64,000 nucleotides of DNA from Echinometra lucunter (taxonomy: Eukaryota; Echinodermata; Echinoidea; Camarodonta; Echinometridae), in contig CM057161.1 of NCBI GenBank assembly GCA_029962745.1, positions 7,081,876 to 7,145,875 on the forward strand, in the 5' to 3' direction. The translations under genes and the position numbers were made by a program. Of this stretch, positions 20,871-56,900 are shown piece by piece (the first letter of the stretch is position 1; each line of letters opens with the position of its first letter). The notes beneath the pieces are model-generated. The model saw only the letters and a list, made by a program, of their open reading frames with translations, ran no database searches and was not told where the DNA came from.

Positions 20871-20909
<39 letters not shown>

Positions 20910-23900: not shown

Positions 23901-26900
23901 CGAATTGCATAATCATTTGAAGAATCCAAGAGGAAAATTATCACTCTTCCAAGGAAAATATATGGTTTTGATTATTCCAAGTTGTTTTGACTGCGATATG
24001 GGTTTAACCACCAACATGTCACGAGTGGCCATAGCAAAGAGTGCCGCTGCTCCGCGAGGGACAAGCAGCAATAACATGTATGATTACAACACCAACACCA
24101 ACACCGTACTTGAAATCATGAATTTCCCAATCCCTAGGGGCTGGTGTTGGTGAATGGGGAAATTACATGTAAATCGTCAACACGAACCGTGATACTCGGT
24201 TCAGCAGATGACATTCAACACCAGAAAGCAACACTGACTACTGGAAATACGTCAAATCTTGCGAGGTCAATCCCAACACCAGCCTAATTTCAAGTTCGGT
24301 GTTAAGGCTGGTGTTGGTGTTCTCACAACACCAACACCAGCCTCCAACACCGTACTTGAAATCACCCAATATTTATACTGTGCTACATGTTCACCTCAAA
24401 GAGTGCTCACGGAGCTGCCAACCCCATCTGGAAAAATATCATATTCTTTACTTCTTTTAAAGGCATTGGCTAACTTTGTGAGCAGCCGAATTTAAAAAAT
24501 TCTCAAACTAAGATGAAACCTGTGAATGAGTACTTGTATTTGTACTCAATTACCCTGAAACCAACCACAATTTGGAATGAAAAACTGCTAATACGATGCA
24601 AACCGCGATTTTATTAATTTTGGTCTCAGAGACAATAAAATAAGAGGACCGTTTTGCTTGAATTAAAAAAGAAAAAAAAAAAAGTTATTTACCTCCCTCC
24701 GCGTGATACGCCAATACACACAGTACAGTCCAGTGAGCCATGCACGCATGCGCACTCCTTACTCTAGTCCATGCAACTGACCCTTATTTATCAAACATTG
24801 GTTCACATTTTTGATATTTGAAAATACTTCCTGTGGATATTATTCTCTGAAACTTTCAGACTGGTATTTTTGCATGTTTATGTTTATCCCACTTTCAAGT
24901 AGCAAAACAAGTTTTTTTTTAAATCATAACAATGTTGTTAACCAATGCCTTTAATCCTAATTTCAAGCCAAAAATGCTAATTTGGGGCTTGAAAATTCAA
25001 AACATACAGCAGTGTGACTCCTTTGCCACCCAGTATGATATCCTAACTAAATATCACATTAATGACATACAGGGGTTATTTGATCCTTACTTGCTTCCTT
25101 TAAAATGATCTACAGTAATACACAGGTGGAATATACTGAGCATCAGGATGAACTTAAATGTTGATAATATAACACAGAAATAGGATAAAATAGGTAAAAA
25201 AGAATCACTGTCAGAACTTTCAAAAGTCCTATTTTGATGGGAAAAATCCTATTGTCATATTCCCTTTAAAAAATTCTACTAAATGGGATAAAATCGTACT
25301 AGTTGGTAGCTCTGTCCTCACGGTGTTTACAATGCATTATTATCATCTAAAATGATCTACAGTAATACACAGGTGGAATATACTGAGCATCAGGATGAAC
25401 TTAAATGTTGATAATATAACACAAAAATAGGATAAAATAAAGGTAAAAAAGAATTACTGTCAGAACTTTCAAAAATCCTATTTTAATGGGAAAAATCCTA
25501 TTGTCATATTCCCTTTAAAATAATTCTACTAAATAGGATAAAATCATACCAGTTGGTAGCTCTCTACTCACAGTGTTTACAATGCATTATTATCATCACC
25601 CCAGCAGTGCCAGGTACCCATTTATACACCTGGGTAGAGTACAGCAAAGGTAGATTAACCCATTCGTGACAGAGGTCCACATTTTGTGGTTTGGCCTAAT
25701 ATCTCTTGATGCAAAGCCCTAAAAATCATACCAAATACATGAGCAGAAAGAGCAAAAAATTCTATACAAACTGTGCCCATTTTAGTTGCGTCAATATTCA
25801 TTGTTTGATGCTGAAAATTTTTTAAAGGAAAATAAGCATTAAAATCCTTAAATTGGCGATGTGACAGAAAGTTTAAAATCACCATTTTCCCCTGCAAATT
25901 GGCAACTTTTTGACTACTCATCATAATTCCTGTCAATTTATATTCATTTCAGATACATGACGTTTTATAAGAAAAATGTAGCAATAATATAAAAATGTTG
26001 GTGTTGCCAATTTGAAGGATAAAAGCTGATCAAATTTGGCTATAAATAATTCCTGTAACGAATGGGTTAAATGACTTGCTGAACTTAGGAGCCAGGCATC
26101 AGTGGGAATCGAGCCCACAGCCCTTTGATTGAGAGCGTGTGTTTTTTACCAACTTTGCCACAACACCTCCACATAGCATTTGTGAAAGACTGTTCATTGT
26201 ACAACATGAAGTAACTTGCACTGTCATGAAGGGCTTGCAATACAAATTACTGCCGATTTTAAATATTACACTAAATCATGGTGATTTTGAAAAAAAAGAA
26301 AAGATTACTAACTTTAATTTGATACACATGACGAATTTAATAAAAAAAGAGTTTGGGTAAAATCCTGGACATGAGGTTTAAGAAAATCTAATACGCTTAT
26401 TGAATTAATTAATATGTACTGATAAGTCCCATAAATTATTCACAAGAGTTCAGATTACTGTTAAAGGTCTGGTCACTGGTAAAATAACTGCCTGTACAAC
26501 AACAACAACAACAACAACAACAAAATAAATGAAATACATACTTGTATTTTTCCTCACAACATAACAATAAATGTAAAACATAATCCCCATCCCCTTGGGG
26601 GAGGGTTCTTACTTGGGGTCAATTTGTGAAGGCACATTAGAGATAATTCCCTTTCCAATCCTTGCATGCACATTCATGTACACATTTGAAAATCACTTCT
26701 ATACTTAGCATTACTTGTCAAGTATGATTTTCTCCAAGTTATAACAGAGAGTGGGAATTAATCTTTGGACAAATTTTTCAGGAAGTGCTGATTCATCTCA
26801 TTTCTCTGGGTTCAACCTCTTTGAGTATACCCACAAGTCATATGAAATTAAGTGCATGCACTGTCTATCCATTGCAATAATGAACAACTAATATTACTTC

Positions 26901-29900: not shown

Positions 29901-32900
29901 ATGGAAAGTTCATTGACCTTTGCCTCTGACCTTATTCAAATTCAACTCATACTCAAACTTGACCTGTGCCTTCAAGAGATGTACCTCTGGTATAAATTTG
30001 GTGATCCCACCTCGAAGCTATAGAAAGTTATTGTGTGTACAACACAGCACAGTGCCAGTCATGGAAAGTTCATTGACCTTTGACCTTTGACCTTAATCAA
30101 ATTCAACTCACATTCGAACTTGACCTGCACCTTCAAGAGATGGACCTCTTGTATGAATTTGGCAATCCTACCTCGAAGGTATAAAAAGTTATTGTGTGTA
30201 CAATATAGCACAGTGCCAGTCATGGAAAGTTCATTGACCTTTGACCTTTGACCTTATTCAAATTCGACTCATATTCGAACTTGACCTGCGCCTTCAAGAG
30301 ATGGACCTCTGGTATGAATTTGGTGATCCCACCTTAAAGCTATAGAAAGTTATTGGGTGTACAACACAATTGTTGACGACGACGCCGACGCCGCCGACGA
30401 TGCCGACGACGACGCCTACGCCGACACCGGAAATAGTGATACCTATGTCTCGCTCTGCTACGCAGGCGAGACAAAAATGTAGATATCCCTATTGCAATAA
30501 GGAGAATGTTGTGTGTTTGATTCTATATTATCGTCAGTCGAGAACCAGAAGGGGGCTATAACTTAAAGATGTTGCGTTGAAAATCAGAAGAGTGCAGATG
30601 CTATACAGCCTGTAGCGACAGTACCCAATAATATAATAATATCCAAGTCCTTTGGAAGCGCATAGAGACGTTATATCATAATGTGATATGCGCCATACAA
30701 GAACTATATATTATTATTATTATTATTACCCTTGACTATCTTTTGTAGTGGTGGAGGTGTGTGCATGCACATGTGTGTTTGTGACTGTGCAAGGCCCCGT
30801 AGGCAGAGATTTTTTCCGGGGGGGGGGGGGCAAGACCCTCATTTACTCTTCAAAACATTTCAAAATTTAAAATCTTGAGAAAAAAAGTGGGATTTAAACA
30901 TTTCTGGGCACCCCCCGGCTACGCGGCCATGTGTGTGTGTTGTCTTTGTGTGTAGGTGCGGCATACATACCAGTTTGCCCATTTTTGACAAGTAAATTTT
31001 TTTTGAGTTGTCAACTTAGTGATTTGAAATAATGTTGATATTGTTCTGTATTCTGCATGGCCATCTTCCCATAGTCGCTTCCTAATTCATTAGGTTTTTT
31101 TTCCACCTCATTATTTTACAAAGCTATTTCCCTCCAATTTTTGCATCTATAGCATACTCCATGCCCGACTCCATGGCGTATGATTCAGAAGCCGCGGAAC
31201 TTTTTGAAAGTGGGGGGGGGGGGGCGGGGGGGGAGCTTTTGTACAGAGGCAAATGTGTCAACTGAAAAAGGGGGGCTACCCCCCCCCCCCCGGTTCCGCG
31301 ACCCATGTGATTTTCATGGACGTACAATAAAAAAAAGTTAATAAAATCGGCATGTACCCTATAATCATTCACGCCAAATGTTTAATTCATACGCTATACT
31401 AATTATGTATGCTACCCTCCCCAGTGAACAAACAACGCGAATATATCGTATTAAACCTCCACCCCCCAATGTATAAATAGCTATGAATTCAAATAGACCT
31501 ACATGTTACACAATTTATCGACCTTTTTCAATGAAAAGCGAAAGTCTCCTTTCCAAATTTCCAAAGACTACGAAGCGAAACACCATGCGGCTCGCGGGCA
31601 CCGTGAGGGTATGTTGCACACTAAGATGGCGGCCGTTCCGACCCACAGATTTGAACGTACTTTTCGGAGAGTGAACCATCTTGCGCCGCTTCGCGGCGCT
31701 CTATCATCTTTGGTTTGGCCTAATATCTTTTGATGCAAAGCCCTAAAAATCATACCAAATACATGAGCAGAAAGAGCAAAAAATTCTACACAAACTGCCC
31801 ATTTTGGTTGCGTCAATATTCGTTGTTTGATGCTGAAAATTTTGTAAAGGAAAATAAGCATTAAAATCCTTAAATTGGCAATGTGATAGAAAGTTTAAAA
31901 TCACTGTTTTCCCCTGCAAATTGGCAACTTTTTGACTTCTCATCATAATTTCTGTCAATTTATATTCATTTCAGATACATGGCGTTTTATAAGAAAAATG
32001 CAGCAATAAAATAAAAATGTTGGTGTTGCCAATTTGAAGAATAAAAGCTGATCAAATTAGGCTTTAAATAATTCAATGCAGAGAGGGCACAAAACTCTTA
32101 CAAATTAGGACTATTTGTACAATTTGTGATACTTGCTTGAAAATGAAAATTTCTGGTTGTGCTATACTGATTAGTGTGTATTTAGACTTTAAACAAGGCG
32201 TTTGCGATGTTGTGTCTCGCCCACTTGTGAAAATAACTAGAAATATCGCGATCTGTGATGGCACACAACAGAACTGTATCGAAAGCTCATTGTGAAATAA
32301 CTGGGATGGAATAACATTTGATAAAATATGAGAAGGGTTTTTTATGAAATGGTACTGCATTTTCACGTGCATGTACTTTCCCTGCTTCTACTCTCATCCC
32401 TCTGATATGAGTAACATTGTATGATGACCTTTGACCTGACCATGTGACCTCTGACTGGACCATAACATGCAGGTCCCCTTAGTGCATCTACAACCCAAGT
32501 TTGATAGATAAGTGTCACATGGTTGCAGAGTTTTGTGTCATAAGAGAGTCTTGCACGTAAACTTTAATGTTTGACCTGAAATGACCTTTGACCTTACCAT
32601 GTGACCTATGACTGGACCATAACATGCAGGTTCCCTTAGTGCATCGACAACCCAAGTTTGATAGATAAGTGTCACACGGTTGCAGAGTTTTGAGTCATAA
32701 GAGAGTCTTGCACGTAAACTTCAACGTTTGACCTGAAATGACCTTTGACCTTACCATGTGACCTCTGACTGGACCATAACATGCAGGTCCCCTCAGTGCA
32801 TCTACAACCCAAGTTTGGTTGAAAAGTGAGTCACGGTTGCAAAGTTATGTGTGATAAGAGAGTCTTGCACGTCAACTTTAACATTTGACCTGAAATGACC

Positions 32901-35900
32901 TTTGACCTTACCATGTGACCTCTGACTGGACAATAAGATGCAGGTCCCCTTAGTGCATCTACAACCCAAGTTTGATTGAACAGTGTCACACAGTTGCAGA
33001 GTTTTGTGTCATAAGAGAGTCTTGCACGTAAATTTTAACGTTTGACCTAAAATGACCTTTGACCTTACCATGTGACCTCTGACTAGAGCATAACATGCAG
33101 GTCCGCTTAGGGCATCTACAACCCAAGTTTGGTTGAAAAGTGAGTCACGGTTGCAGAGTTTTGTGTCATAAGAGAGTCTTGCACGTAAACTTTAACGTTT
33201 GACCTGAAATGACCTTTGACCTTACCATGTGACCTCTGACTGGACCATAACATGCAGGTCCCCTTAGTGCATCTACAACCCAAGTTTGGTTGAAAAGTGA
33301 GTCACGGTTGCCAAGTTATCTTTCATAACGTTTGTGACGGACGGACGGACGGACGACGGACGGACGACGGACGGACGGACGACGGACGGACGACATTTGG
33401 ATCCCTTAGTCTCGCCTTCACCTCCGGTGGGCGAGACAAAAAGCAAGCAAATGCCAAATTTTATACTGGGTGCATCATAAGTTGATTAACAGGTTTCATG
33501 GGTTATTTAAAAAAGAAAAATCAATTGCGAAATTCAGAGGCTATCTAATAACTGCAGATGACATTAATCTTGAGGAGATAGTGTCTTACATCATCATTCA
33601 TGCTTTATTTCAAATCATTTGTTCATGTAAAACTGAAGAATAGATCATATTTCCTGCAATAACGTCTTTTGAAGTGACATTTGCTACCTTGCCAACAATT
33701 TCTACAAGACTATTTTTTCAACTGTATTTGTTTCCTGTTATTCTATATGCAACATATTCACTATGTGCATTGTCTTACCTCTTTTTACCTTTACCCTCTT
33801 CATATGAATAGAAATATTTTAATAGTAATAGTTAGCATTTCCATGTGCTGTGCTTTGATACATTACAATTTGTCATGAATCCAACTTTTATGTGCCTTGC
33901 CACTATTTGCAAATTGACAATGTTTTAGATATGTATATGTTTAAATTGTTATTACGCCAAACATGTAAACATGAATAATCCAGCTTTGGCTGTTTTTCAT
34001 GTGAAATGATTTATATTGTGTATCAAACATGTTTATGCCTAATATTCTTTAATTGAATTGAATTGTTATTCATTGATTAAAAAAAAAAAGTACTTTAAAA
34101 ACATAGTGAATAACACACATTTCCTGGTGTAACAACTTCTGAAAGATCACTTTCTACCATGTCAACACACCCTGTATACATGAATTAATTGCTTTTCCCT
34201 GGTCAAATCTATTTCATGGTTTTGCTTAAGAAATATAAGGATGGCAAAAAACACCGAAAATAACTATTAATAAAGTTGAAATATGCAGTCATGTCCACTG
34301 ATCCAAGAACAGACAGATCTCCCCCATTTTAAACAGTGTAACCAAAAGAAAAAAACAAAAACAAAAACAAAAACAACAAAATGAATCAACAGTAGTTACT
34401 ATAATGTAAGAAATTCTTGTGGAAAGAAATATATTAAGCCAATATTGGCAATTCATGAATTGTATGCATAAGCACAATCACAAGAGCAATGTACAATTAA
34501 AAGATTATCACATTCATCCAGTCGTACACAGGAAATGTCTTGTTTTCATTTTTCAAGTGTTGATAAGGATGAAATATCAATCAGGTTCAGTGAAAAATAG
34601 GAGTCCCCTCTTCACTGCATAATAAATAAAAAGCAATTGTGTCTTATCGATTCATTATAAAGGAGATTTATTACATTTGGGGAAAAGCCAAACAAACTGC
34701 ATATGAGAAGGAGTTTAGATTTGTTTCTGCGGCTTCATTCAATTGATATCAACTGTCAGTTTGAAAAATAAACATCAGCGATTATCTCAAGAGTACATGT
34801 ATGAGTAATATGTTAGGTAATGGAATTCACAGGTACTGTCAATGGGTATGTATGCTGATAAAGTAGGACATACCGTCTGCCTGGGATCGTGTTAGTCCAA
34901 TTAGCGAAAGTATTTCTTATTGAAAGATACTGCAATTGTAAAAAACAATCGTACTACAAGTCAGTAGTTTGGTTAAATTCTTTTCTTAGATAGTTAGAAT
35001 TTGATTAAAATGGTTAAGAGTGTAAGTTATAATTCTATTGTATTGAATATATTTTAGCAGTTTGATATTGTTTTCATTTTGTAAAGCTCCTAGAGATTGA
35101 TTTTCTATCTAAGCACTATATTAGGCTCAACTTATATTATCATTATTAGTAGTAGTAAATATCATATATAGAGTTTTGTGATAATTTTAGAGAGATCTCT
35201 TGACTTTACAACAGCTCTAGATTGTACATACCCTCCTTGCATCAATCCGTAGTTGCTGTGCTCTTCGTGCTTCAGCCCATTTCACTTCAAATGAACATGC
35301 TCCCTCTGCTCCAGTGGGTGTGGCTTCATGCTGGCTCTGTGATTGGTCAGTTGCATCCTCATCTGGACATGGCTTCACAAAAGGCCCTGCAGGATGTAGG
35401 CTTGCATCACTTACATGGAGGCTACTGTAGAAACAACCATATGGTAATGATCAAATTTATTGTTTCAACATCACAAGCTTTGGGAATACTAGAAGAAGGC
35501 AGAGATTAATTAGACATATCCACACTATATCTTACTTTACACAGAATGTAAGCAACACATATTTCATACACTATGGAAAAACAGTCATTGAAGTAAGTTT
35601 TGTTTCTAAGACTATTTACATTATAACTGTAGTCAGATTTTTACCCAAACACACATCTTCAAACTTGCATTTAGGCTTTAAAACATTCTCTCCTCAAATC
35701 TTGGTGAGTTGCTACAACAGCTTACCTGATACTTTGTCTGGCAGGGGGAGATGACTGCAGAGCTTTTAATTGGTTTGTCCTATCATTCAAAACAACTGCC
35801 AAAGAGATCAAACACATAAAAATCAATTAAAAAACACCCAACACTCTAAATAAATGCATATACATACACGTATGTTTTAACCCATTCGTGACAGAGGGTC

Positions 35901-38900: not shown

Positions 38901-41900
38901 TACAAACATTTATAATGTACCTGAAACTATTATGATAAATGATGTCTGTTCTGTTGAGATATTGTAATGTTTTGAAAGAAAACCTTTGAAAAACAGCCCT
39001 TCTATTCTATTTTTCTGACAGAAGTCTACACATCGATGAATATTCATGAAATATGGTTTCCTTATTCGGGTACCTTTTTAAACAATTTTTATGAGATTTT
39101 GGGAAAATGCAAGGATTTGTGAGGTCACAGAGGTCAATTCCTTTGATCACTTTCTCAGTAGTTACACTGCTTCGCTAGGACTATGCGGTTACAACCAACA
39201 ACCACAACCATTCCCTGAACTACTATCCAGTCAACTACAAGCAGCCCCATGATAATTACGAATAGGGCAGCTTCCATGCAATTACACCAACACTGTCTTA
39301 CAATGAGTCTTCTTAAACAAATTTTTCTAAAGTATGAAGAAAGCAGAAAGACTAAATGCAATACAAATACACTGACAAGTTTCTTTCAGTCAGGTTTGGT
39401 GAGAGATCTGTATATGGAAGCTACAACATATTAAAAGCAAGAAGTTCATCATAGCTTAACTGACTCATGGCAGAAATTATCTGAAGCTTCATTTGATCAG
39501 TTTTCTGCTAAAAATTGGCAACACCACTATTTTTAATTGCTAAACATTTTTTTCATAAAAACATGTATCTGAAATGAATTCAAATTTACAGAAAGTATAC
39601 TGAGAAGTTAAAAAGTTACCAATTATGAATTTGCATGGAAAAACAGAGATTGTGAACTTTTCATCACATTGCTAATTTATAGATTAGTGCTTTATTATTC
39701 CTTTCAAAAAATTTCAGCATCAAAGGACAAAATTATGTACTGATGCAACCAAAAAGGGCACAGTACTCTTTCTGCTCATGTATTTGGTATGGTTTTTAAG
39801 GCTTTGTATCGAAAATTATTTGGCCAAACCACACAATGTGGACTCTAATTGGTTAAGGCTCTAAACATCTCTTATCATGGGTCTTATGATATACATATTG
39901 CACTGAACCTACTTTCCAGTTTACATGATATCTCATTAATCAGATAATTGGAAAATGGAGGAATGACTCATAGCCTTAAGCAAACTACATTCATTATAAC
40001 AATGAAAAAAAATAATGGGTTTCAGCAAACAATACTTGTCATAATAATGAAAAATAATGGTTTTAGGTAAATGGCACTCATTATAATAATGAAAAAATAA
40101 TGTGTTGTTATATCACACTTAGTGCCTGAAAGACATTATTTCATAATTTCATTCAACACAGCATTTCCAAATAGGGCAATTATATGAAAGACACAATATC
40201 AATATCATGAAAGACACAATATCTTCTTTCTCCAGTAAATTGAATTAAATGATACATGATACAATATCAATATTATAAAAGACACAATATCTTCTTTCTC
40301 CAGTAAAATGAATTAAATGATACATGAGAATGGATCTAATTTACAAGAAGCATGTAACATTAAAAAAAAAAAAAAAAATTAATGTGGAAGCCATCTAGCC
40401 AATGGAGGGTCTGTAACTAGTGGCAGTGGAGGGGGGATCGAAGTAGAATCTGTCCATTCCAATCCACTTTTTTTTAAAGTAAAACCTGAAAAATATGGAA
40501 TCAAGGAAAAATAAAAATTCTTCCTATGAGTACATCCCATCCCATTCTAGTCAACTTTTTGATAATAAAACCTACAAAAATATGGAATAAGGAAAATAAG
40601 GAAAATGAATAATTCCTGTAATGAGTACGGAAAAATAAATTACTTACGCTTATAGGGCTTTGGTCCAGTTCCAAGGCTGCCTCTGCTTAAGATCCTCTGC
40701 AGGTTGCTTGGTCTGTGCTTCAAGTCCATTGAACCTCTCCTTGCAAGCCCCCTAGTTGCAGGTCTCTTCTGTGGTAGAGTTGATGGCAATGGAAGACAAT
40801 TTTGCCCTCCGACGGACATGCCAGTCCTTTCTTGTTGAAAATGCTCTTCCTTTGAATCTATTCTTGTGCAAGAAGGGTAATCATCAACACCTCTAGAGGC
40901 AGTTGTCTGCTGCTGACCGCCATGTAGCTGCTTTTCCCTGGAAGGTTCTCTGCTGACATGACCATTAATGGACTGGGAGCCTAAGGTTTTCCTTGCTTGT
41001 TGCAAAGATACCTCTGAGACTCGGACCTTCCTCCCATCCCCTGTTTTGAATCCTGCAATCTCAGAGGAATTCCCAGCAAGTGTTCTTTCATTTGCTACAC
41101 CAGAAACAGCAGAATGACTTGAACTTGTTTCTGTTCCTGCATCATTTTCATCAGTTAAGAACTGTTTTGCTTTTAAAATGGCTGCCTCAGAGATCTGAGC
41201 CTTCTTGCCATGTCCTGTTTGAAAGCCAACCCCAATGGTTTGATCTGGAAGTGCATCAGTTTCATCAGCTAAGTACTGCCTTGCTCTATGAATGGATGCC
41301 TCATAAATTTGAACTGTCTTCCCCTGAGCTGAATGGAACCCAACTCCTGCATTTTGATCAGCAATTGTCTCATTTCCATCTGCTAAGAACTGTCTTGCTT
41401 TCCTCATAGATGCCTCTGAAAACTGAACTACCTTTCCATGCCCAGTTTGAAAGCCAACTCCGACAATCTGATTAGGCATTATGTCACTCCCATCCACTAA
41501 AAATTGCCTAGCTTTCTTGATGGATTCCTCAGAAGTCTGAACCTTCTTTCCATGTCCTGTTTGAAAGCCAACTGCATTGGTTTCATTAGCAAGTGCATCA
41601 GTTTCATCTGCTACGAATTGCCTCGCGTTCTTGATGGATTCCTCAGAAATCTGAACCTTTTTTCCATGTCCCGTTTGAAAGCCAACTGCAATGGTTTGAT
41701 CAGGAAGGGCATCAGTTTCATCTGCTAAGAATTGCCTAGCTTTCTTGATGGATTCCTCAGAAATCTGAACCTTCTTGCCATGTCCTGTTTGAAAGCCAAT
41801 TGTATTGGTTTCATTGGGAAGTGCATCAGTTTCATCTGCTAAGAATTGCCTCGCTTTCTTGATGGATTCCTCAGATATCTGAACCTTCTTTCCATGTCCC

Positions 41901-44900
41901 GTTTGAAAGCCAACTGCAATGGTTTGATCAGGAAGTGCATCAGTTTCATCTGCTAAGAATTGCCTCGCTTTCTTGATGGATTCCTCAGAAATCTGAACCT
42001 TCTTTCCATGTCCCGTTTGAAAGCCAACTGCAATGGTTTGATCAGGAAGTGCATCAGTTTCATCTGCTAAGAATTGCCTAGCTTTCTTGATGGATTCCTC
42101 AGAAATCTGAACCTTCTTGCCATGTCCTGTTTGAAAGCCAACCCTAATGGTCTGCTCCGGAAGTGCATCAGATTCATCAGCTAAGAGCTGCCTTGCTCTC
42201 TGAATGGATGCCTCACAGATTTGAATTTTCTTCCCCTGAGCTGTTTGGAAGCCAACTGCAACATTTTGATCTGGTACTTCAACAGTCTCAACAGCTAAAA
42301 ACTGCTTTGCTTTTTGTAGCGATGTCTCCGAAATCTGGATCTTCTTCCCACGTCCAGTTTGAAAGCCAGCTGTCACTGTTTCATTCCACAAGTCCTGGTT
42401 TATGGGAGACTGAGCAACTTTGTCCACTTCCTCATAGTCACTGCCTAATAGACTGCGAGCATGCTGAAGCATTTCTTCTGAAATCTCAATCTTCTTTCCT
42501 CCACCTGTCTGAAAACCTGCCAATTTTGCAGAGTCCACATCTGAATTAATTTTCCTTCTCGGACCACTGCATTGAGATTTCATGACATTCTGGTTAGCAT
42601 CCCTTTCACTGTCAGAGAATAACTGCCCTTCAACATCAAGAGAAAATAGGCCTTCCTGACTGTTGACATCAGTTGACGGAAACTGCTTAGCTTCCTGAAT
42701 TGCAGATTCAGAAACATGGATGAGCTTTCCACTGCCAGTTTGAAAGCCTGTCATGGGTGGAGTTTGTTTGGTAACAGTCTGTTTCACTTGTTCTTTTTCT
42801 TGACAACTGCCATGATCTGGATCATCATCTCCCAACAGCTGCTTTGCCTTCCTTAAAGATTCATCAGAAACAGAAATAGCATCTCCCTTAGCTGTCTGGA
42901 AACCAATCTGTCTTGGAGGTGAATGTTTAGCCTTCACCGAGTCCCTGTGGCCAGATGTATCTAATGGACATTCAGGTTTAACATGTCTTGTTATGGCTAA
43001 TGACATCTCAGAATTCACATTTCTACCATCACTTGCTAGGTTGTGTAGATAATCTGTATGTATGTCTTTTGTGTCACATGAGTCTGGATCACGGTCTAGC
43101 AGCTGAGTAGCTTTTAGTAGAGATGCCTTAGATATCTCAATAGAGTTGCCACTAGCTGTTTGGAACCCAACCACAGCAAAATCTTGTTCAGATAAGGAAT
43201 CATCAGCAGCTTTTCTGACAGCCCCCTCATCAGAGCTATTTATTTCACTGGAAAGCAGTTTTCTTGCCTTTTGAAGAGGAACATCTGAAATATTGATTTT
43301 GCTCTCTCTTGCTGGTTGGAAGCCTACAGCATTAGGAATGTTGGCAGGCTCAAGGCCACTTTCACAATCTGTGAACATTGCAGATTCAGCAAAGAGTTGC
43401 CTAGCTCTGGATAATGATTCCTCTGACATGGTAACATAATTCCCACTTGCTGTTTGGAAACCTACAGTATCTGAAATGACTGATAAAGACTTCTTTGTCA
43501 ACTGCTGTGACTCAAGAGTAGGATGATGTTTGTTTACATCGCATGATGCACTTGGTGATGATTCAGAACTATGGGTGTTTGGAGGTGATGTAGGGGAACC
43601 TCTTGCAGCAGAGTCAGGAATATGTTCAATTTCTGCTTCAAGTATCTTTCTGGCCCTTTGCAGTGCAGCCCTTGACACCTGAATCTTGTTCCCTCCAGCT
43701 GTCTGGAACCTCACATTCATAGAATCATGTCTACTTCCATGAAAGCATGCAGCAGATCTAGAGTCTGAGGAATAGTCATTAAGCTTCTCATCAAAGTGAA
43801 CTTCATCGTTTTCTCCAATAACAAGCTTGGCCTTCTGCAGAGCGGATTCTGATATCTTGATATCCTTGCCTCCAGCAGTCTGAAAACCAACCTGACAAAG
43901 ATTGGGTAAAGCACTGGATACACAAGATGGTAAGTGTTCATCACTGGACAAATTGGTATCTTTCATGGCCAAACAATTGCTGTCATTATCAGTCCTCATT
44001 TCTCCATGATGTTGCACATTATCTGAGGAGATACCACTACTCCTATCATCACTCTTACTGGGCTCCATATTTTCCTCAGGATATGTGACATCTGTCATGT
44101 ATTCCATAATTCTTGCTTCGTCTGAGTTGCAGTCAGAGAGAAGAGCACTAGCTGTTTTCAAAGCTGACTCTGAAACCTGAATATGCTTTCCACCAGCTGT
44201 CTTAAAACTAACAGAACTGAGTATTTCAAAGTTGTTGTCCATCCTTGATCCTGGCTTGTTCTGCTCTGCTGAAGAATCTCTCTCTAGATTTGACATCACA
44301 TTTGCTCTGTTCTTGTGCAGGTGATCTGCTTGAAGACATACTGTTTTGGGAGATAAACTGGGATTAGACTGTTCCTGAGTTTCATTCTTTTCATGAGCTG
44401 TGGATTCATCATCAACATCTGTCAAATTAGCGGATTCCCTGATAGGATTAGTAATTTCACTGTGGTCTGCATCTGGATCCTCAATCAGTATGGAACTGTC
44501 TTCCATAAGCTGCTTGACAGTGTGCATGGATAGGTCTGCCAAGGGAACTTCTCTATTGAATGCATTAGGCCTATGTACATGGTCCTCTCCTGCTGCCTTA
44601 GAAGGACGTCTGTCTGGAGTCTCTGTTGTGGTACATTTTGGAGAAGGTGGACTTTCTTCATTTCCAGATTCACAAGATCTCGCCAATACCTGGCTCTGCA
44701 CAAGAGCCACATCAAGGTTACTTTCTTTGTCTAGATCGCTTACAGGAATTTCTTCATTGCTAATTGTGGACTCTCCTACAGCATCATTGGTAGCATCTGC
44801 CTGATGATGGGGTTCAGGTACAATGAAATGACTGGTATGTTCAGTAGGAAAGTTTTTTGGTGGGACAAGCTTTATTCCAATCTCTGGTTGATCCTCCTTC

Positions 44901-47900
44901 TGCACTGAATCTTCTTTCTTGTCTGCACATCTGAAAAGCTGTGCTCCTCCACTCTCAATTCGATTAGATGCCAAGATTGAAGACACATCAAGCTGAGAAA
45001 ATCCTGTGTCTTCCTCCTGCATGAAATTATAGACCAGCTCCATCTCCTCTGCTGCTTTGATCTCTCTAGCAGCCTGTGATGCTGAAAGACAGTCATCATC
45101 TTCAGTAATATCAAGTTCACCATCTTCTACAGGGTGTCCATTCAAATTGTCTGCTAGTTCCCGTTTGTTCTGATGTTGTTCTGGGACCCTACTGCATTCA
45201 TCTGGAACACTGACTCTACACATCTCAAGCCCTCCTTCTCTTTGTGTTTCTCTTACAACATCAATTGCACTAATTTGGTTTACAGATGAGATGCTTGTTG
45301 GTGATGCCAAATTGGATGGTTTCTGGACTTTTGCAACCAGACTTGGTGGTTTGAATGGACGGAATCCTTTGTGACGGTGTCTGCTGTCTGCTTTTCCTCT
45401 AGGTAGAGCATTTCCTGGCAAGCTCATCTTAAGTTCTGTTACCCCATTTTGTATCCTACTACCATCTCCACCTCCATTCATGCTGTGCTTGCCAGAAGTT
45501 TGTTCTACCTTTCCTTTAAGTACAGCAGTATCTGATTCTTCATCCTGGTTGATATCATTCATCATCTTTCTTGCCTTAGCCATCGCAGCTTCTGAGACCT
45601 TGATCATGCTACCCTTGGCAGATATAAATCCTATGGAAGTTGGCTCCTTCAGGTTGGAAACTTGTGTTTCTTCATCACCTGAAGTTACTTCTGCAATGAT
45701 TTTCTTTGCTTTTGAAAGTGCAGCTTCTGATACTGCAATAGACTTCCCACTTGCACTCTGAAAACCATATTGGTTGTCTCCAGCAGATAAATTGAGTTGA
45801 AATTCTTCAGCTGGCTTTTCCTTGTCCACATCTTCCAACAGTTTTTCAGCTTTCTTAAGTGCTTCAGAGGACACAAATATGGCTTTGCCACTAGCACTTG
45901 AGAATCCACCACTGGAGGCCATCTGATTGGTGTTACTTTGACTCTGCAAGTGAGGCTGGTGATGACCTCCTGAAGATGAAACATGACCCTTGGAGATGAC
46001 TTTGTATGGGAAATCTTCAAGACCTTTGTCATCACTTCCACGTTTGTCCTGGTTTGGAGATATGAGATTATTTTGCACAAGATGTGACGCCACATCCCTT
46101 TTAAGGGAAGCTTTCAACTCCTCAGTCTCTTCCTCATGTTCGTTTGCAGCTGAGGAAAGGTCTTTTAAAGCAATTTCTGTAGGAAACTCGTCTCTTTCTT
46201 CCTCAAGTCGTAATCGCTTTGGCGAGGGCCAACTATGAGGAATCTCCCTGATCCTTACCAAGGTCTTGTTATGTGGTGGTGCGCTTTGAACAATCGATCT
46301 GCTAGAGGTAGGTGTGGTGCTTGTTCTCTGGATGGTCTGGTTTTGAGAGCTGGAAACTAGTCTGGAGGGAGGATTTGGAGCTGTCTTACAAAATGTTGAA
46401 AATGTTGTAAATGCTGAAAAAAAGGGATAAATAATGGTGCATAAGAAGTTTTTACAAACATCAAATGCTAAATTTTTTATACTAAATATAAAATTTAATG
46501 GAAATTATCAAACTACAGAATTTTTTTTTTTTTGAATTACCAAAGTACATTCAAATTTGGGATGGGTATATTCTATGGAGTCAAACTATACAGAAGAAAA
46601 TAAATGCAATTTATGATAAATTTGCCCTTTTCCAAGATTTAATGAAGTACATAAAATTCATGCATAATTCATACTTTTCTATTTAGCTGAGTGTCACTTA
46701 TTCAAATGACATCAAAGAGCACTGTTGATCATGAAAGTACAATGATATCTTCATCACTAAATGGGGTGGATGATGTCAAAGAAAGTCATGGAAAGCTCTG
46801 AAAATGATTTGGAAAACTTAAGAAAACTCTTAAAAAGATAATATGGTTCGTTGGTTGGTTGGTTATTTTACCAGACTGCCAAGAAAGCATGTGCATGCTT
46901 GTTAGCAAGCAACCAGGGGACCAACATGGTAATGAGGAATAACCCCATACCACAGGGCACTGACACAACAACTTTGTTTTGAACCCAGGTACTCCCGGTT
47001 ACGAGACCACTGCTCTACCACTGAGCCACAGCGCCTTTTCCTATATAATATAATCTCATTGAAGAATATTTTACCAATACAATCGGCAAAAATCCAAAAT
47101 CTTTTCTTCTCATACTTGGCAGAGAAAATGCAAACACCGTAAAACTCAAGACTTACATTGTGCTGTTCTGCAAGGCCTCTTCATTGTCCATGGCTTCTGA
47201 GATGATACATCTTTTGGTTCTTCCTCTACAGTGTCCTTTGTCTTCTCCTCATCTTTCTCTACATAAACAGCTCTGGTAAGCCAGCTTGGAATCTTTGACT
47301 CACTTCCTGCATCCTTTCTTGGCATGCCTGCTGAGTATTTGAAACGTCCCTTTGTCGTAGTTTGTGTATTGAGATTGCTAATTGCAGAGGGTTTGGTTAA
47401 AGGCATTGCTGGACGGGTTTCTTGCTTTGACAACAGAGGTTTTGGAAGCTGCTTGTTTGCACTAGTGGAAAGACTTGGAATGATGGGTGTGGAAAGGTGC
47501 TGTGCTATTGCAATTTGCCCACTTGTTCCAGAAGAACAGGAGTCTTTCTTTAGCAAGGTGTCAGAATGATCTCCTGACCTCAAATGATCCATAGCCTTTT
47601 CCTTGCTCTTGAAGATGTCTGAATCAGGATTGATGAAATCACCTATCAGGTTTCTTTCTACTCCAAGACACTTCTGAACTGTAAGGGTGCTGTTACTGCC
47701 ACTGGGTTGTGCCTTAGAGGCAATATCAGTAACTCTACAGAGAGCCTCTGCAAAGTTTGGGGATATTGGTGACAGCAGATCCACATCTGGTGCCGGTCTG
47801 TTAGGTGTATCCACTTGTCGCCCATTGGTCTTCGCATCCACACTGCATTCAGTGTCTATTACAGTTCCAAGTGGCTCATCAGAAGGATGGAATTTTGATG

Positions 47901-50900
47901 GCTTCCTGAATAAACCTGGATGAGGACTCATCAAAGAATCATCTGAAATGCTGTTCGTTGGAAAGCTACTATTAGTGGCAGGTGAATCACACTTTCTATC
48001 CAAGTTTGAGGAAACACTATTGTAACCAGCTTGCTCAATGGTAGTAAGTTCATTCATGCTCCCATCAGATGCACCTAAGCTTTTAAGTAGCTTTTCTCTC
48101 CTACTAGGAGGTGTAGCTAGAAAGAATGCTAGCGTCTCTTCAATTGTAGTCTTCTCATTCTTGGTACTTTCCTGTGAGTTGAACAGAGTTTGGCTTGCAT
48201 GACTGCAGCCATTGAAAGAGTTATCCTGAAGCGACATTGCAGATTGTATGGATGAATGACTTCTACTGCTATCACGGGTTCCAGATGCAAGTTTTGAAGA
48301 TACATTACTGGTATTTTCTATGCATTCATCTATTGTTATCCTGGATTTCAATTCGGCAGCACTATTCATACCAAGTTCAACAGCATCTTGAACAGCTACA
48401 TCCTTCACTTTGATAGCTACCTTTTCTCCTGAGTACTGATCTGGGGCTTTCTTTACAGGTGCATGTTCATTGATGCTGTCATGTCTTTCCTGATTGGCAA
48501 GATGAGGCTTTCCATGATCTATCAAGGGTGAATGTACTGAGGTAGAAGGTGGTCTCTGCAAGTTGTTGGTCATCATGCCATCAGCAGCCTGGTCTGCCTT
48601 GTGATTATCTCTCACTTCAGTACCATTACTGACATCAGAGCGACTGGACTGCTTATCCCCCGGTGCTGATGCTTTGCTCCCCTCTTGTCCACTTTTATCA
48701 CTTTCTCCAACATCCTCTGTTTCCATGGTGAATTCTTCTTCCTGGCTTTCATCTGTTATAGAGGGTAGCTTGATGACCTGCAGGGGTTGAGTCGATCCCT
48801 CATCTCCCTCCTCACAGCTATCCATCTCCACAACAGAACAGCTTTCTTTGAAGAGAACCTTGGCAACATCCTGTCAAAAGTACAAAAAGGGGAATATTTA
48901 ACAGAACAGCCAGTTTGGAAAGAAACCATCTGTCACAAATATTTTGTTGGATGAGGAAATGACATTCTGCAACACATGCTCAGCAACAATTTTCCCACAC
49001 AAATCCAATGCTAACCTACAAGCTTAAAAACTTATTCAAGTCTACATCTTTTACAAAGTAAATCTGGAAAATCGGTTGGGTAATCCAGTGAAATGAATGC
49101 TACTCCGGTGAAAAGGGTGTCTTGTAAGGCATCGTGATTTTCAGTCCCACCATACTCTGTTTGTGTACAAACCAAACTGATCATGTTTCAACATACAGGG
49201 AGTAATTATTCAGAACTAAATGCATTGGAAAGGCATATATCATATCAAAATGAAATCATCAGTCACAAGTTAATGTATCATAATCATGTGATTGGATATT
49301 TTCATGGCATATCTGTTTAATTTTAACCCACAGAGGTACAGTGTCACCTTTAGGAGACGCTTTTGCAGTATCTGTTGGTCTAGAATGCTGGGCATTACAC
49401 ATTATACATGAGCAGAAAGAGAAAAATTCACTGAAAAATTTGAGTCCATTCCCAATGCCATATAGTGTGGCATTCTCGAATCAGAGCAATTTAATTGTAA
49501 CTAGTCATTCCACTCCCTAAATTGGCAATGCAGTGAATATAACATAATCCCTCTTTACATGTTCAAATTGGCAATGTTTGATTAAATTTTACAATTACAA
49601 TTCATTTTGGTTCATGTTATATCCATATTTATTTTTTTCAAACTATGTAAGAGTGGAAGAAAAATAATAGTTGTTGCCAATTTGAGGATTGAAAATGATT
49701 AATCTAGACCTCAAGAAAGCTCTGTACCTCTATGGGTTAATGAAAAGAAATCACAAGCAGTATCTCCAAATCCTTTTCACTCACATGGGTTTGCCAGGTG
49801 TCATCGTGGATGCCTTTCTTGTCAGAGCTAGTGACTGTTTTACTCCCCTTCGTACTCATAGGAGGAGTTGCTAGGGAGCTGGTCCAAGAAAGATCGGAGT
49901 CCTCCGGTTCGGCACCAAGGCTTCTGGATAATCTCTGAGGGGTAGACTGGTGGGGTAATAAGAGAGATTGGTAAAGAAAAAGAGTGATATCCTGAAGGGA
50001 TGGATCTGAGTTGATTTGAAAGCTAAAGGTCAACATTCTGCAACAGGTTGTGTAGAGTGATTTCTTAAACACTATTTGTATATTAAACAACTCCCTAGCA
50101 CGACGATTCCTTTTAAACTTTATTCAAAGCAATTCGCTTTTGAAAAATTTCACTGAAAACCGAATGGACAATTTTCAGGCCATAATCAATCTGGAGTTTC
50201 CTACTGCTTTATCATTTGGAAGTTCTAGGGGTACTGTGTGAATTTTCATACAACGTTCAAAGTGTAAACTTAACATACCAAACGCTGCAGCGGAGTGCTG
50301 CAGGCTCTCTTGTCCCCTGTTCCACACAACGTGGACGGAGTCTTGAAAAGTTGCTTTATGAATATGGGCGTGTCCTTCTGGTGGGTGGGGTTCCAAGTGG
50401 GGAATGGACTGAACTGGATCTCGGTGGGTGGGTCTTGGGGTTCTGCAACCTCCTCCTCATCTTCATCCTCCTCTTCAATGGGTACTGCAGTCGGTGCAGA
50501 GGTGGGTTGGTGCGATGTGATGATTTGCGAATTTGGTGTTGTGTGCATGCTGCTGGGTACTATTTCAAAATGAACACAGAATACAATTTTTTTTTTTCAG
50601 TTTAATAAGTCCTATTAAATCAATATTTATATATAATTTGGAAAAAACAACAACATATTAATAAGAATTTTGAAGCAATAGACCTATCATCACATCCCCC
50701 CCCCCTTCACAGTAAAGAATAATTATGCAGAACTGAGCAGAGTAGGGGTGTGTACTATGAACTTCAGAGTCAAACCTAAAGATTATAAGTGTATGACATT
50801 TTAATATATATGTCTACATGGAAGCATTTGTAGTGTATATGTCCAATTTAAACCAAAAATAGAGTTGCTGTGTCAATAATGGCAATGTCACTACCAATTT

Positions 50901-53900
50901 CAAAGTTTTTCTTCCCTATCTCAAGTTAGTACAGTTTGTTGTTTGATTACATATCAATATGACCTTCACATCTGTTTTAATTAAATCCATGATAAGTAAT
51001 TCAAAGAGAAGCTTTTAATTCTAGGAATTACCCATTCTTTTTTCTTTTTCTTTTTTGTAAGGAAGAATATCATAGTAATAATAGTAATAATAATAATATT
51101 GGATATTTATATAGCGCACATATCCACCTAATAAGGTGCTCAAGGCACTCCCAATATTACCCCGGCTAAGCTAGGCTACCAATTTCAGTGCTCATAGCTT
51201 TCAAGGAATTCCTTCCTGCCGGTACCCATTTTTACGTGGGTAGAGTGTAGCAAAGGACATTAGTGTTGCAGCAGGGATTCGAACCCCGTACCTTGCGGTT
51301 CAAAGCCCAGAGACTTATCCACTGCACCACAACACCTCTACAGAGAGAAAGGTATCCGGAAAGGATGACTCTTCAAATCCCCTCATATTCCAAATAAGAC
51401 TAGAAATAGCTTAAACGTTTAAGCCTAATATTAATGCTACCTTTGTGCGTGGTCCCAAGTATTCATTTCTGTGTGCAGGGCACATGCCTCTTGGGGAAAG
51501 TGAGTAAATTTCTTTATCAATTAGACCATTTCAAAATCTCACATTAGACACCTGTTTTTATGTACAATTATTCTACCTTTCCCAGTGGCTTTGAAAATAA
51601 TTTCTTTCACAATCTAAGCTGCATGACCAGAACTCTTGTTTGTCTTTGTGTCTCCAACTATAAAAGCAAAGGCAACTTTCTCACCTTTCCTGAACCTTTT
51701 CGGTTGAGCGAAAGAAGAAGTGGACTCTTCGTCTGGAGGAGCGTGGCCGTCCGGGTAATCTTTCTGTCTCCTAGCAACAGGGGACAACCCATCAGGAGTG
51801 AACAGCCCCGGGGTGGAGCAGCCTTTGTTCTCTCTTTGGCTTGCTTGTGGAGTTTTGAGAAAGTCCTGGAAAGGAAAATACTGGGATATTATTAAGTAAT
51901 CATTGAGATCAATGAAAATACAAGGCAAATAGCCATAATGTGTCTTGCCACATTTGTGTCCAATCATTCTTGCAGGTAATTGTAATATTTGACCTCATTT
52001 GACCTTTGACCCCCAAATAACATTTAGGTCCCAGTAAGGCATCTACCCTCCAAGTTTGGTTACAAACAGGCAAATGGTCGCAAGTTTCATAATTGCTATG
52101 GACAGACCAATGGACGGACGGACACCGCTAATAAGGATCCTTTGGTCTCACTCCATCTTGGTGGCTAAACAAAAATGAGTGGCCTTACTGATCTACATGT
52201 AACTGATCTTCACATGTGTAATCATGACCATGTAATCAAGAATGATGTGAGTCAAGAGATTGCATATTACTCCTTCAATTTTACATTGCCCCAAACCAGT
52301 AATTTCGTTTAATTCAACATCAACCCATGGCAACTGTGAAGCATGCTGAACTTATTCAGTGACATGTTGCAGTTGACAGCTGACACATGATCTTGTAAAA
52401 TGATATAAATTCATTATCTAAGCTTGGGATTTCAGAGCTTAAATTCAACCAACTGATTTGGGTGCTGAATCCTAAATGACATAATGTAACAACAGGAATC
52501 AGCAAAGATGCTAAAGATAAGCTTGAGTTTTAGGAAAGGTGAAAAATAATTTGTGAGCCTTCTTATTCTTTCCATGTCGGTTAGGAAGAATTTCATAGTA
52601 AAAATGTACCCTAGAAAGGATTGCTCTTCAAATGCCCTCATATTGGAAAAATGACAAGAAAAGCTGATAAGTTTGGGGGGAACCTTCATGCCAGATTTGT
52701 GTGTGGTCCTGTATCCTCATTTCTTGTGCAGTGCAAGTACGTTTGGGGGAAAGTGAGTGAATTTCTTATGAATTCAATAATCTCCAAATCTCACACTAGA
52801 CATCTGTGTTTATATACGACTAATCTAACTCTCCCAGTTGCTCTGGAACAGTTTCTTTTACATTACAGGAGGGGGCGCTGTGGCTCAGTGGATAGAGCAG
52901 TGGTCTCGTAACCGGGAGTACCCGGGTCCGAAACCAAGTGGATGCGCTAATGCCCTTTGGTAAGGTATTAATCCTCATTACCAAGTCCTTCGGAGGGGAC
53001 TTAAAGCCGTCAGTCCCCTGGTTGCTTTACTAACAAGCATACACATGCTTTCTTAGCAGTCAGGTAAATTAACCGTTTAACATTATGATCACATGACCAA
53101 AACTCCAGTTTATCTTTCAACACCCAGGATGTACATGTATTGTCTTTTCAAATGAACTATCATCATACAGGCAAGGCACATCATATTTTGATGCAGTAGA
53201 CAAGTACAGGCAAGTCCTACAATTACAAGTACATGTACATGCTCACCTCCTTTATCCACTTGCTCTCTTCATGTGATGTCCATCTTTCACTGTCGAACCA
53301 GCTGGTGTCTACCTCTCCCAGGGAACTACAGAGGGAGTTCTCTTCTAGGAGGGATGTCAGTGAAGCATTGGAGTGTAGTGAGTGGTGGCTAGATTTGAAG
53401 TCTAGTAAAAGTTTACAGGAATTCAGAAGATAACAGATTAAAGATGCTTGAAAGAAAAGGTTACAGGCAAATGTGAATTTGGAAAGGATAATAGTGAATT
53501 CACGCATCAGTGATGTATCCCAATGCAGATAATTTCTTATTCTTTGTTTTCAATCAATGATTTACGCAAGATATATGGTTTATCATACAAGTAGAAATAG
53601 CACAATTAAGAATTCCCTATCAAAGGCATTCAGAAGTGAAATGTTCTGCAGAGTTTCAAAAATGTACTATGATCAAATATAAATCTAAAGAGCTAAAATT
53701 CTGAACACCTTGGCAATTTCACTGTCACTGAAACTAATGGAATGTTACCATGGATGAAGGAATTGAAATGAATTAATGAACTTTACTGAATTTACTGATT
53801 CATTTGCCATTTTAACAGAAATTCTTCTTCCATTGGTTTACAGTAACAGGCATTTCACAACATAATCATACATCTTGCAGTGAAGTGTACAAACATGAAT

Positions 53901-56900
53901 TAACATGTAACAAAATATCAGAATTAAAGACAAAATGAAGTTTTAACTAAATTACAAAAATAATAACTTTCAATTTATTTAGCACGTAATAATTAACACC
54001 GAATTCTCTATACACTTTACACTGTCAAAGAAAAAAAACACAAGAGTGTTTTTCAGAAATGACAGAGAGAAAAGGAAATTCAGCTCATTGACTCAGCCTT
54101 ACATATGTATGCCCTCTTATAATGTGTGAAGGAATGGAATATCAATTTATGATGATCTTTATAGAAAATGTTCTTTTGAACATATCAGTTACAGTATAAC
54201 TTCTTGGACATCCCTTTGAAACATGTGTTGTAGAATTAACACACGTTCCAATAGGAAGTCCATGAACTTAAAGACTTATGATGGTTTCGAGAAATGCAGC
54301 CAAGGTCTTCTGTGTAAAATGGCTATGGAATGTGAGAATTCAGTTGTAAAGGGGCTCAAGATAGTGGAGAACAATAAACACATAACCCATGTTAAACCGG
54401 AAGCCTACTGGAAGTGGGTGACACCTGTATTAGCCTATGGGAAGGAGAGAATTAAACAGTCAATGGGGTTACAAACTTGCAATATAGCTCACCTTGGACG
54501 AACTGCAATGGACGAAGCCTCAGTTTGGTGTGTTTCTGACAACCATGTGCAACATATCTAGCCTGGGTGCTTTTTGGTGTTGATTCCATTACAGCAACTA
54601 ACGAAAACACTCAAAACCTTTTGATAGTCAAAAACAAGAGTAGCAATTTTTCAGTCAGCTGAGCTGTCTTCAAGTTTTAACATTAGAAGTGAAAAAGCAT
54701 AAAATCATATCCCCTCCCCTCCCCCCCCCCCCAAAAAAAAATAGCATTGAAAGTGAATAGTAGAGCCAAAAGCCTAATTGTAAAATACTGCCAACTTCAC
54801 AAGACTTAAAAATGTTCTGTGCCAGAATAATAAGAAAAAAATATCTAAACGAAGTAGGATTTTTCAGTATTATAATTCCTTCAACTGGGTTTCTACATCA
54901 TCAGGATCATGGAGCATTTGAAGCTGTTTTCAGTTACCATGGTAGCTTGCAAATCAACAATCTTGCTCCTTTGAAACTTAACAGCTTCCTGTATAATCAT
55001 TATAAGGATAATGTTTACATCAGTGGCAGCTAGCCAAAAACCGAGCATAAAGGTGCGTTCAGATATGATGCGACTTTTGAAGTTAGTGCTGCCACATTGT
55101 GCCGGCACATTTTTTGTGTTCAGATATGATGCAACTTTGTGCCGCCACTCATGCTAACGAACATGCATTAACTCTCAAATGAGAGAAAACTTTGTGAAAA
55201 CTTGCACAAACAATCTCATGACAACTTTTTAGGAATTTGATTTGTGCACATTTTTTTTTGCAGCCCGGCAGCAAACCAAAAATAGACCTGTACACAAAAA
55301 TTGTGGTGGCACAATGTGGCGGCACAAAGTCGCATCATAATATCTGAACGCACCTTTAGTGTGGGTGATTACACCCTAGCTGCTGTGTGTACATGTACAT
55401 GTTCGTTTGTAGATCATCAGAGATTTTCATAGACCTGTGAGCTACATGTAATCCAACCAAGATGATGAGGGGAGTGGGTTCTAGCCTTCTCCCCAGGATT
55501 TTTAATACACATGGTGAAAACGTAACGTTCGGCAAGGAGGAAAAATTAACGCATGTAACCAAACGCGTGGCCTTGTTCTGGTTGGGTAACTTTTAATACA
55601 AAAAGTGCCAATGGCAAATGATTGGCTGCACTTTCATGCTAAAATTTACACATGGTGGTATGTCCTCTTCTAATTCACCAGTGGTGGCAAAAGTTTTGTT
55701 TAAATTTCCATACTGGCTTCAGTATGGAAATTGGTATACTGGTCCTAACCGATACCAGTTGATTCCAGTAAAATAAACTGGTTTCAATATGGACATTGGT
55801 ATACTGGTCCTGACTGGTACCAGTTGAACCAATACTTCCAACTGGTAGGGCCTACCAGCTGACAACTGGTATTCCAACTGGGACCACCAGCTGAAATTTC
55901 TCAAGTGGAAACCAGTTGATTCCATACCAATTTCCATATTGAATTGATACACTGGAATCAACTGGTTCACTTAACTGGTACCAGTTCCAGTTGCCTTGAT
56001 CTGGGCCTTATAAACTTTTTTTTTTTAACCTGGGACAGGAATCAATTACAAATAAGTTTCTTATTCAAAATATCTGTACTTACTAAAGAATCAATTCAAA
56101 TGAGTCAACAATCATTGAATTAAAGAATATTAACGCACAAAATAAATGCAAGACAAATGTATGTACGCCTAGGTGACTTTAGTTTGTGTCCAAATATGAT
56201 AATCTTTGATTGCGAAGACATGCTTAATAGTCGGTTAGACAGTCCTATTTAGCTAACAGTGTAATCTAGAAAAGTTCTTTCCACTGAACTTTTTTCTTTG
56301 ATTTAGGCTCCTATATAGTTTGTGAACATTTTCAGCTTGGTTGCCTAAACAGCAACCTTGAGCAATTTGCATAATTTGCATAAATGCGTATAGGTTTTAC
56401 AACGCAAAGACAACTTACACAGAACGTTCAAACTGAATTACGTGCCAGTTGTGTATGTGCAGTGATACGGAACTTCAATAGCGTTGTCAATCTTGTGAAT
56501 TCAACCTTTGATGAAACAAAACAACCTTAATACACACAATCAGATATGGATGTTCATCCAATTAGGGGTTTGTGGGACATGGAAATCATTTCAGTGATAT
56601 TTTTACATTTAGAAATCACGTTTTTGTACTAAGAATCATGTTGATATCAACTTAATATCTGTAAACAACCGTGAGTGTACTTTTTTGCACCTGGAATGTG
56701 AGTAGGCCTGCTCCTAGTGAACCGGTATTAATGCGCGCAGGCAGGTTGGCAGCCTGGTTGGCAGCCTTCTTGTATTGTTTTAGTTCCTTCGGGTGTACTT
56801 CTTCGTGTAATGTTAGCTGTATGGATCGAATCAACGTTATTTGAATACCCTTGCACCACAAGTATGTTTCCAATTCAATTGCACATTTCAAAAAGATGGT

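Follow-up and report, generated by a model that had tools for sequence, protein, structure and literature searches.

The window analysed here, 64,000 nucleotides of contig CM057161.1 from the sea urchin Echinometra lucunter (GCA_029962745.1), carries on its minus strand a BRCA2 gene with 24 BRC repeats (r1 to r24) in a single exon. Large BRC arrays were known before and many repeats are not unique to Echinometra, but half of its repeats are non-canonical: they have glycine where the FxxA motif has alanine, and this FxxG class dominates a tandem array of eleven units. We propose a two-class BRC region, in which FxxA repeats would capture RAD51 and an amplified array of weak FxxG repeats would act by avidity. 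In our judgement, the chances for and against this proposal are evenly balanced.

A sequence-only reading of the window had already described a BRCA2 gene with 24 repeats in one exon, and identity, count and coordinates were all confirmed. The minus-strand frame 46504-40643 comprises 1954 open codons, and 24 BRC motifs were found in the exon within it (46413-40648). On this exon, the Pfam BRCA2-repeat family PF00634 scores 673 bits (cut-off 20.3), with 21 stretches individually reaching E ≤1. Our own hidden Markov model (HMM; iterated, 121 sequences) detected 24 repeats, all with E ≤2.2e-4, and a second HMM, built independently from 2099 repeats of non-echinoid proteins only to avoid circularity, recovered the same 24/24 with a weakest E of 3e-5 (r22). 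These numbers exceed the about 15 significant repeats that the sequence-only reading had set as the lower limit for its count in a profile search. A chance or low-complexity origin of the repeats was rejected, as our own HMM gave 0 matches in 605 shuffled proteins. Weak Pfam matches of the exon to herpes IE2, ApoO and similar families had no stretch of their own and were discarded as composition effects. The repeats are arranged as follows:

45536..45910, minus strand: N-terminal cluster r1-r3 (FSSA, FQSA, FISA), spaced by 47 and 45 residues
42422..44212, minus strand: scattered repeats r4-r12; r4-r10 are FxxA, r11 and r12 FxxG
41117..42370, minus strand: tandem array r13-r23, 11 x 38 residues (114 bp); nine FxxG, with r14 and r22 FxxA
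40958..41056, minus strand: terminal repeat r24 (FKTG); the nearest S. purpuratus unit is the last repeat, r27

The distance from r3 to r4 is 474 residues, r4-r12 follow at 46-107 residues and r24 lies 58 residues after r23. Between them, r13-r23 are head-to-tail units of fixed length at exactly 38 residues, confirming the tandem portion noticed before as eleven repeats in strict register.

The phenylalanine and the alanine of the FxxA motif in BRC repeats touch RAD51. FxxA was found in 12/24 repeats (r1-r10, r14, r22) and FxxG in the other twelve (r11-r13, r15-r21, r23, r24), which amounts to 9/11 of the array. The sequence-only reading had missed this class, and its statement that each repeat can bind RAD51 is unsupported as worded; 12/24 no longer have the alanine that makes the FxxA contact. 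At the LFDE-like site, a hydrophobic pair is present in 22/24 repeats (not in r11, FPST, and r24, TLGS) and Asp/Glu occupies the fourth place in 17/24.

For comparison, 183 related proteins were taken from a set of 5.8 billion (120 listed of 266 matches plus 73 of 73, overlapping), including Lytechinus variegatus, L. pictus, Strongylocentrotus purpuratus, two Diadema species, three sea stars and a sea cucumber. Glycine at the site of the FxxA alanine is found in 12/24 repeats of Echinometra, 17/27 of S. purpuratus, 16/24 of L. pictus, 9/17 of L. variegatus, 9/15 of D. setosum and 10/17 of D. antillarum, together 73/124 in the six echinoid proteins (Echinometra included); L. variegatus and D. 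antillarum each have one counted repeat in which the Phe is changed, too. Three sea star proteins have glycine in 0/18, 0/12 and 0/11 repeats (0/41), the sea cucumber in 1/15 and the acorn worm in 2/14. Across 177 other proteins, which include the sea stars, sea cucumber and acorn worm and exclude the six echinoids and the ENA protein P0125, it is found in 43/2389 repeats. P0125 (2139 aa) has Gly in 14/14 detected repeats, several with an urchin-like FQTGHG core, but no run of six. FxxG as a general trait of arrays was rejected, because among the 32 tandem runs of at least six units listed, Gly is in the majority in four urchins only. The tandem-run units of two further ENA proteins, P0012 and P0113, are all LxxA (7/7 and 6/6), showing that an array-wide motif change is not urchin-specific. 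Among the titles and abstracts listed by literature searches, with most subscription papers outside coverage, no report on an echinoderm BRC expansion or on FxxG repeats was found.

The cost of the exchange can be estimated from published measurements. Humanised RadA binds FHTA with a dissociation constant of 280 μM and FHTG with one of 1590 μM, and the FHTG complex is represented by crystal structure 5fov (PMC4855620). In a full Leishmania repeat, the change from Ala to Gly is reported to cause a three-fold loss (PMC9162458). With a cost of about 3- to 6-fold in affinity, 24 equal RAD51 sites are unproven. Human BRC5, which has Ser for Ala, is described as low-affinity in one paper (PMC9162458) and thought to be non-binding in another (PMC4855620). 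According to Carreira and Kowalczykowski (cited in PMC9162458), human BRC1-4 bind free RAD51 well, whereas BRC5-8 are weak on free RAD51 and strong on the filament.

The FxxA class is N-terminal and the FxxG class C-terminal, toward the DNA-binding domain. In the two-class reading, the old FxxA repeats r1-r10, which are paired place by place in S. purpuratus, would most likely serve RAD51 monomer capture. The FxxG class would derive for the most part from an ancestral repeat of echinoids in which glycine replaced alanine. Slippage or unequal exchange would later have multiplied it as a 38-residue unit, on the side facing the DNA-binding domain. FxxG repeats would still dock on RAD51, each about 3- to 6-fold more weakly, and because each of them is weak, a dozen in register would act by avidity. 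Such an array could hold RAD51 and hand it over on DNA, or grip the growing filament, and the urchin division of labour would represent an exaggerated version of the human split into strong BRC1-4 and weak BRC5-8. In isolation, the BRC array is expected to be disordered.

Synonymous changes are in excess between the array units: the 55 pairs of Echinometra units have a mean dS of 0.80 and a mean dN of 0.20 (dN/dS about 0.25), although these values come from paralogous units that are non-independent and affected by gene conversion, which reduces their weight in favour of our proposal. Gly is kept in 42/44 array units of four urchins, though several other columns vary between species. In the same 44 units, the F and the G two places past FxxA/G never change, and 41-42 units retain each of two Ser, one Ala and one Leu. 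The dS excess together with the kept Gly argues against simple decay. It also bears on the idea that the array is mostly neutral, namely a coding minisatellite with unequal crossing-over, in which r1-r10 do the work, the FxxG repeats are weakened leftovers and their number is irrelevant. This would fit the repeat number, which ranges from 15 to 27 among urchins, and the 90-98% DNA identity of r15-r18, which marks them as recent copies. The BRC arrays of D. yakuba are likewise reported to grow and shrink, with short forms segregating (PMC2882388), and a single BRC2 or BRC4 is reported to suffice for viability and fertility of mice (PMC12803100). A neutral array is harder to reconcile with the low dN/dS, the conserved columns in four urchins, the open exon and the 38-aa period common to Echinometra, Strongylocentrotus and Lytechinus, and we consider it rather unlikely.

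The history of the array was traced by comparing single units. In a one-way comparison, the nearest S. purpuratus unit of r1-r11 and r24 is the same-numbered (or last) repeat with 53-87% identity (0.63-0.87 for r1-r3), whereas for r12 it differs in number. In contrast, r15-r19 are 89-100% identical to another Echinometra unit and no more than 82% to any unit of S. purpuratus, and the nearest unit of r14, r20 and r22 likewise lies within the Echinometra protein. The paired flanks and the self-similar core indicate old flanks and a core that is turning over. Mean array identity is 0.66 within Echinometra and 0.62, 0.55 and 0.55 to S. purpuratus, L. pictus and L. variegatus, respectively. For L. 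pictus against L. variegatus the value is 0.70, compared with 0.69 and 0.71 within these two species, so turnover is too slow to separate congeners. Diadema has no 38-aa run, but has FxxG repeats, several of them 55 residues apart.

The Ala/Gly column was masked and 197 repeats of 11 proteins were placed on a tree. Of its 90 Gly repeats, 71 belong to one clade with 0.76 support, in which all six echinoids are represented; 79 of the 80 repeats in this clade are echinoid and the remaining one comes from the acorn worm. The tree requires 17 Ala/Gly changes, compared with at least 56 in 500 label shuffles. As short repeats yield weak trees, we limit our reading to the suggestion that the Gly class has, within echinoids, largely one shared origin, with more origins elsewhere. 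A more far-reaching version, which we put forward tentatively and hold to be doubtful, is that FxxG repeats form a second, functionally distinct echinoid BRC class. FxxG would have been fixed early in echinoids and amplified separately in Diadema (partly with 55-aa spacing) and in Echinometra/Strongylocentrotus/Lytechinus (38-aa tandem), giving a low-affinity, high-avidity module for RAD51 (or DMC1) on the DNA-binding-domain side, apart from the FxxA capture repeats.

Several points weigh against the two-class reading, among them the variable repeat number mentioned above. Two FxxA repeats, r14 (42158-42256) and r22 (41246-41344), lie inside the array; in both, Cys/Tyr replaces a conserved Ser, and they flank the FxxG block and are probably copies of one another (87% DNA identity). 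The self-similarity of the core is incomplete, with r13 and r23 nearer to S. purpuratus units than to their own and a tie for r21. The twelve Gly sites use four codons overall, while 8/9 array sites are GGA and one is GGG, so copying explains part of the Gly retention. None of the 14 Gly repeats of P0125 groups with the large Gly clade, which implies that the Gly change arose more than once. Moreover, the authors of PMC4855620 regard Phe and Ala as both essential, with activity lost with Gly, and in mouse embryonic stem cells with a lone BRC2, alanine substitutions are called 'largely intolerable' in a main text that does not name glycine (PMC12803100). Judged by these data, FxxG repeats may be nearly dead. 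Finally, a human RAD51 query resulted in 4417 matches at E ≤1e-100, none of them named as echinoid among the 120 listed, which leaves room for a compensating pocket.

A pocket of this kind would be expected if echinoid RAD51 (or DMC1) had co-evolved with FxxG, turning the array into full-strength sites. The retention of Gly in the urchin arrays (42/44) and in all 14 repeats found in P0125 points in this direction, and Gly is also reported in the self-association motif of some archaeal RadA (PMC4855620). On the other hand, r1-r10 of the urchin protein are still FxxA. Ten RAD51 sequences chosen from the 120 listed keep FTTA and the same residues in what we take to be the alanine pocket. Six of them are ambulacrarian (brittle star, two sea cucumbers, sea star, two acorn worms), and in 6/6 the alanine pocket is unchanged and the Phe pocket slightly variable. 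Overall, co-evolution appears clearly improbable to us.

The number of repeats is high but not exceptional. Among the 184 proteins scanned (Echinometra included), which were retrieved with urchin BRC queries and are biased accordingly, with counts taken from database gene models, the median is 13.5 repeats and 8/184 have at least 24. The highest counts were obtained for the amphioxus Branchiostoma floridae (28), S. purpuratus (27), the clam Mya arenaria (26), and the leafhopper Macrosteles and another protein (25 each), followed by Echinometra, L. pictus and one more protein with 24. This refutes the idea that 24 repeats are unprecedented. The L. pictus model (P0001, LOC135154073) has the BRC domain alone and stops before the DNA-binding domain, and is probably truncated; the L. 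variegatus model has the full set.

Equal-spacing runs of at least ten units were found in Mya (22 x 41 aa), Macrosteles (19 x 33) and Diaphorina (15 x 41), in the urchins S. purpuratus (14 x 38), L. pictus (12 x 38) and Echinometra (11 x 38), in the corals Stylophora (P0056, 10 x 45) and Porites (P0103, 10 x 49), in the clam Ruditapes (10 x 40), and in P0020 (11 x 42), P0046 and P0110 (10 x 49 each). As runs of at least six occur in clams, true bugs, corals, urchins and amphioxus, large BRC arrays seem to have arisen repeatedly in animals, beyond trypanosomes. The long arrays of Mya arenaria (P0126), Macrosteles (P0002) and Diaphorina (P0003) are apparently separate expansions in a clam and two true bugs. 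They resemble the urchin arrays as animal tandem BRC expansions with 18-26 repeats, but keep FxxA in 19/22, 18/19 and 15/15 units.

The parallel to Trypanosoma brucei drawn by the sequence-only reading is fair in that its BRCA2 has tandem, near-identical BRC units of fixed length and is the published precedent for array expansion mattering for recombination (PMC2408642). It differs in its 44-aa unit and in the identity of 14/15 predicted repeats; for the genome strain 15 repeats were predicted, but 11 per allele were mapped (PMC2408642). An array length derived from one assembly is therefore provisional, and the 96-98% DNA identity of r15, r16 and r18 would be compatible with a false expansion or collapse. 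However, 52/55 array-unit pairs differ at 5% of bases or more, and separate records of S. purpuratus and L. pictus contain 14- and 12-unit runs with the same period, making an assembly artefact very improbable.

The closest known system is BRCA2 of S. purpuratus (LOC584780, P0122), with the same architecture, 27 repeats and a 14-unit 38-aa FxxG array. In contrast to Echinometra, where 9/11 units are FxxG and r15-r19 are mutually closer, this array is FxxG in 14/14 units. A UniProt entry for S. purpuratus BRCA2 (A5A3F7) has been used, with its BRC sequence, in an alignment for human variants (PMC9545528). Human and mouse BRCA2 share the repeats in one large exon, the helical-OB-Tower domain and the split into strong and weak repeats (PMC9162458), but are described with eight repeats (PMC12803100) and no tandem array, and human BRC5 differs by its Ser (PMC4855620). 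A natural low-affinity FxxG repeat is known from BRC2 of Leishmania infantum; unlike in urchins it is a single repeat, and changing its Gly to Ala brought no substantial gain in affinity, pointing to other causes of weakness (PMC9162458).

BRC number and sequence have diversified across metazoans (PMC12803100), and why there are several repeats of differing strength is described as unknown or a key open question (PMC12803100, PMC9162458), with resilience to oxidative stress as one proposed reason (PMC12803100). Urchins provide a natural experiment on this question, because one protein combines a conserved FxxA set with an amplified set carrying one change, the cost of which is known from measurements in other systems. 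Gly for Ala in most of the multiplied repeats makes the purpose of many BRC repeats testable. Since sea-urchin embryos are a standard laboratory system, both array length and the Ala/Gly position could be tested in vivo.

The BRC exon is part of an apparently intact BRCA2 orthologue of an echinoid, which extends from about 54.6 to 0.8 kb of the window:

49785..54589, minus strand: exons 1-5, N-terminal; start codon at 54589, exon 2 at 53401-53247
47157..48870, minus strand: exon 6, large N-terminal exon, 48% identical to L. pictus
40648..46413, minus strand: exon 7, the BRC exon, 5766 bp, open, with AG acceptor and GT donor; counterpart of human exon 11
23432..35795, minus strand: exons 8-11, up to the helical domain (PF09169, 39 bits at 23619-23432); exon 8 weakly supported
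20606..22304, minus strand: exons 12-13, helical domain continued and start of OB1 (PF09169, 65 bits; PF09103, 27 bits)
15313..15492, minus strand: exon 14, OB1 continued (PF09103, 84 bits for the frame)
12863..14223, minus strand: exons 15-17 including Tower (PF09121, 47 bits, about 13889-13764)
8221..9172, minus strand: exons 18-19, OB2 and the next exon (PF21318, 32 bits); acceptor 8359 or 8401
3588..3773, minus strand: exon 20, OB3 (PF09104, 51 bits)
770..2155, minus strand: exon 21, TR2-like C-terminal segment (PF22687, 23.7 bits, cut-off 27); the stop ends at 770

Pfam scanning of the minus-strand read-through frames from 40644 down to 1045 showed that PF09169, PF09103, PF09121, PF21318 and PF09104 each reach the cut-off in at least one frame. 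The matches are ordered on the minus strand as helical (about 23.6 and 22.3 kb), OB1 (20.7 and 15.4 kb), Tower (13.9 kb), OB2 (9.1 kb) and OB3 (3.7 kb), i.e. as the parts of the DNA-binding domain within one gene, followed by the sub-threshold TR2 match at 2.1 kb; between 30.7 and 40.6 kb no domain match was found in these frames. The domain exons were corroborated by tblastn with six relatives, while the N-terminal exons (54.6-47.2 kb) were located using L. pictus P0001 alone. A splice-aware join, in which GT-AG was demanded, yielded a stop-free model of 21 coding exons and 3928 residues. It is approximate with some uncertain junctions: exon 8 was placed by weak similarity as the sole basis, the acceptor near 8.4 kb has two candidates, and at least one short OB3 exon is probably absent between 8.2 and 3.8 kb. 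Exon 2 shares 71% identity with L. pictus; the TSWF in it is presumably a possible PALB2-binding motif, given what we take to be its likeness to the human segment. The best of 17 proteins compared was that of S. purpuratus, with 58% identity across model residues 1-3502 and 70% within the DNA-binding domain, which agrees with the echinoderm-like animal proposed before and points to an echinoid as the owner of the gene. A BRC-only fragment or pseudogene was ruled out by the whole-gene domains and the open joined model.

Just upstream of the working exon 13 (20804-20606), the minus strand carries a partial, degenerate copy of this exon at 20955-21055 (82% identity over 101 bp with gaps), which appears to be a decayed internal exon duplication. 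Introns of the BRCA2 model also contain minisatellites with units of 157-161 bp at 29023-30368, 32424-33311 and 36965-38422. The unit includes TGACCTTTGACCT, and each stretch is followed by a GACG-type tract, which suggests that all three are copies of a single mobile element that carries the repeat. Broken frames at 58385-59446 (minus strand), upstream of the BRCA2 start, resemble, by eye, a LINE-type reverse transcriptase.

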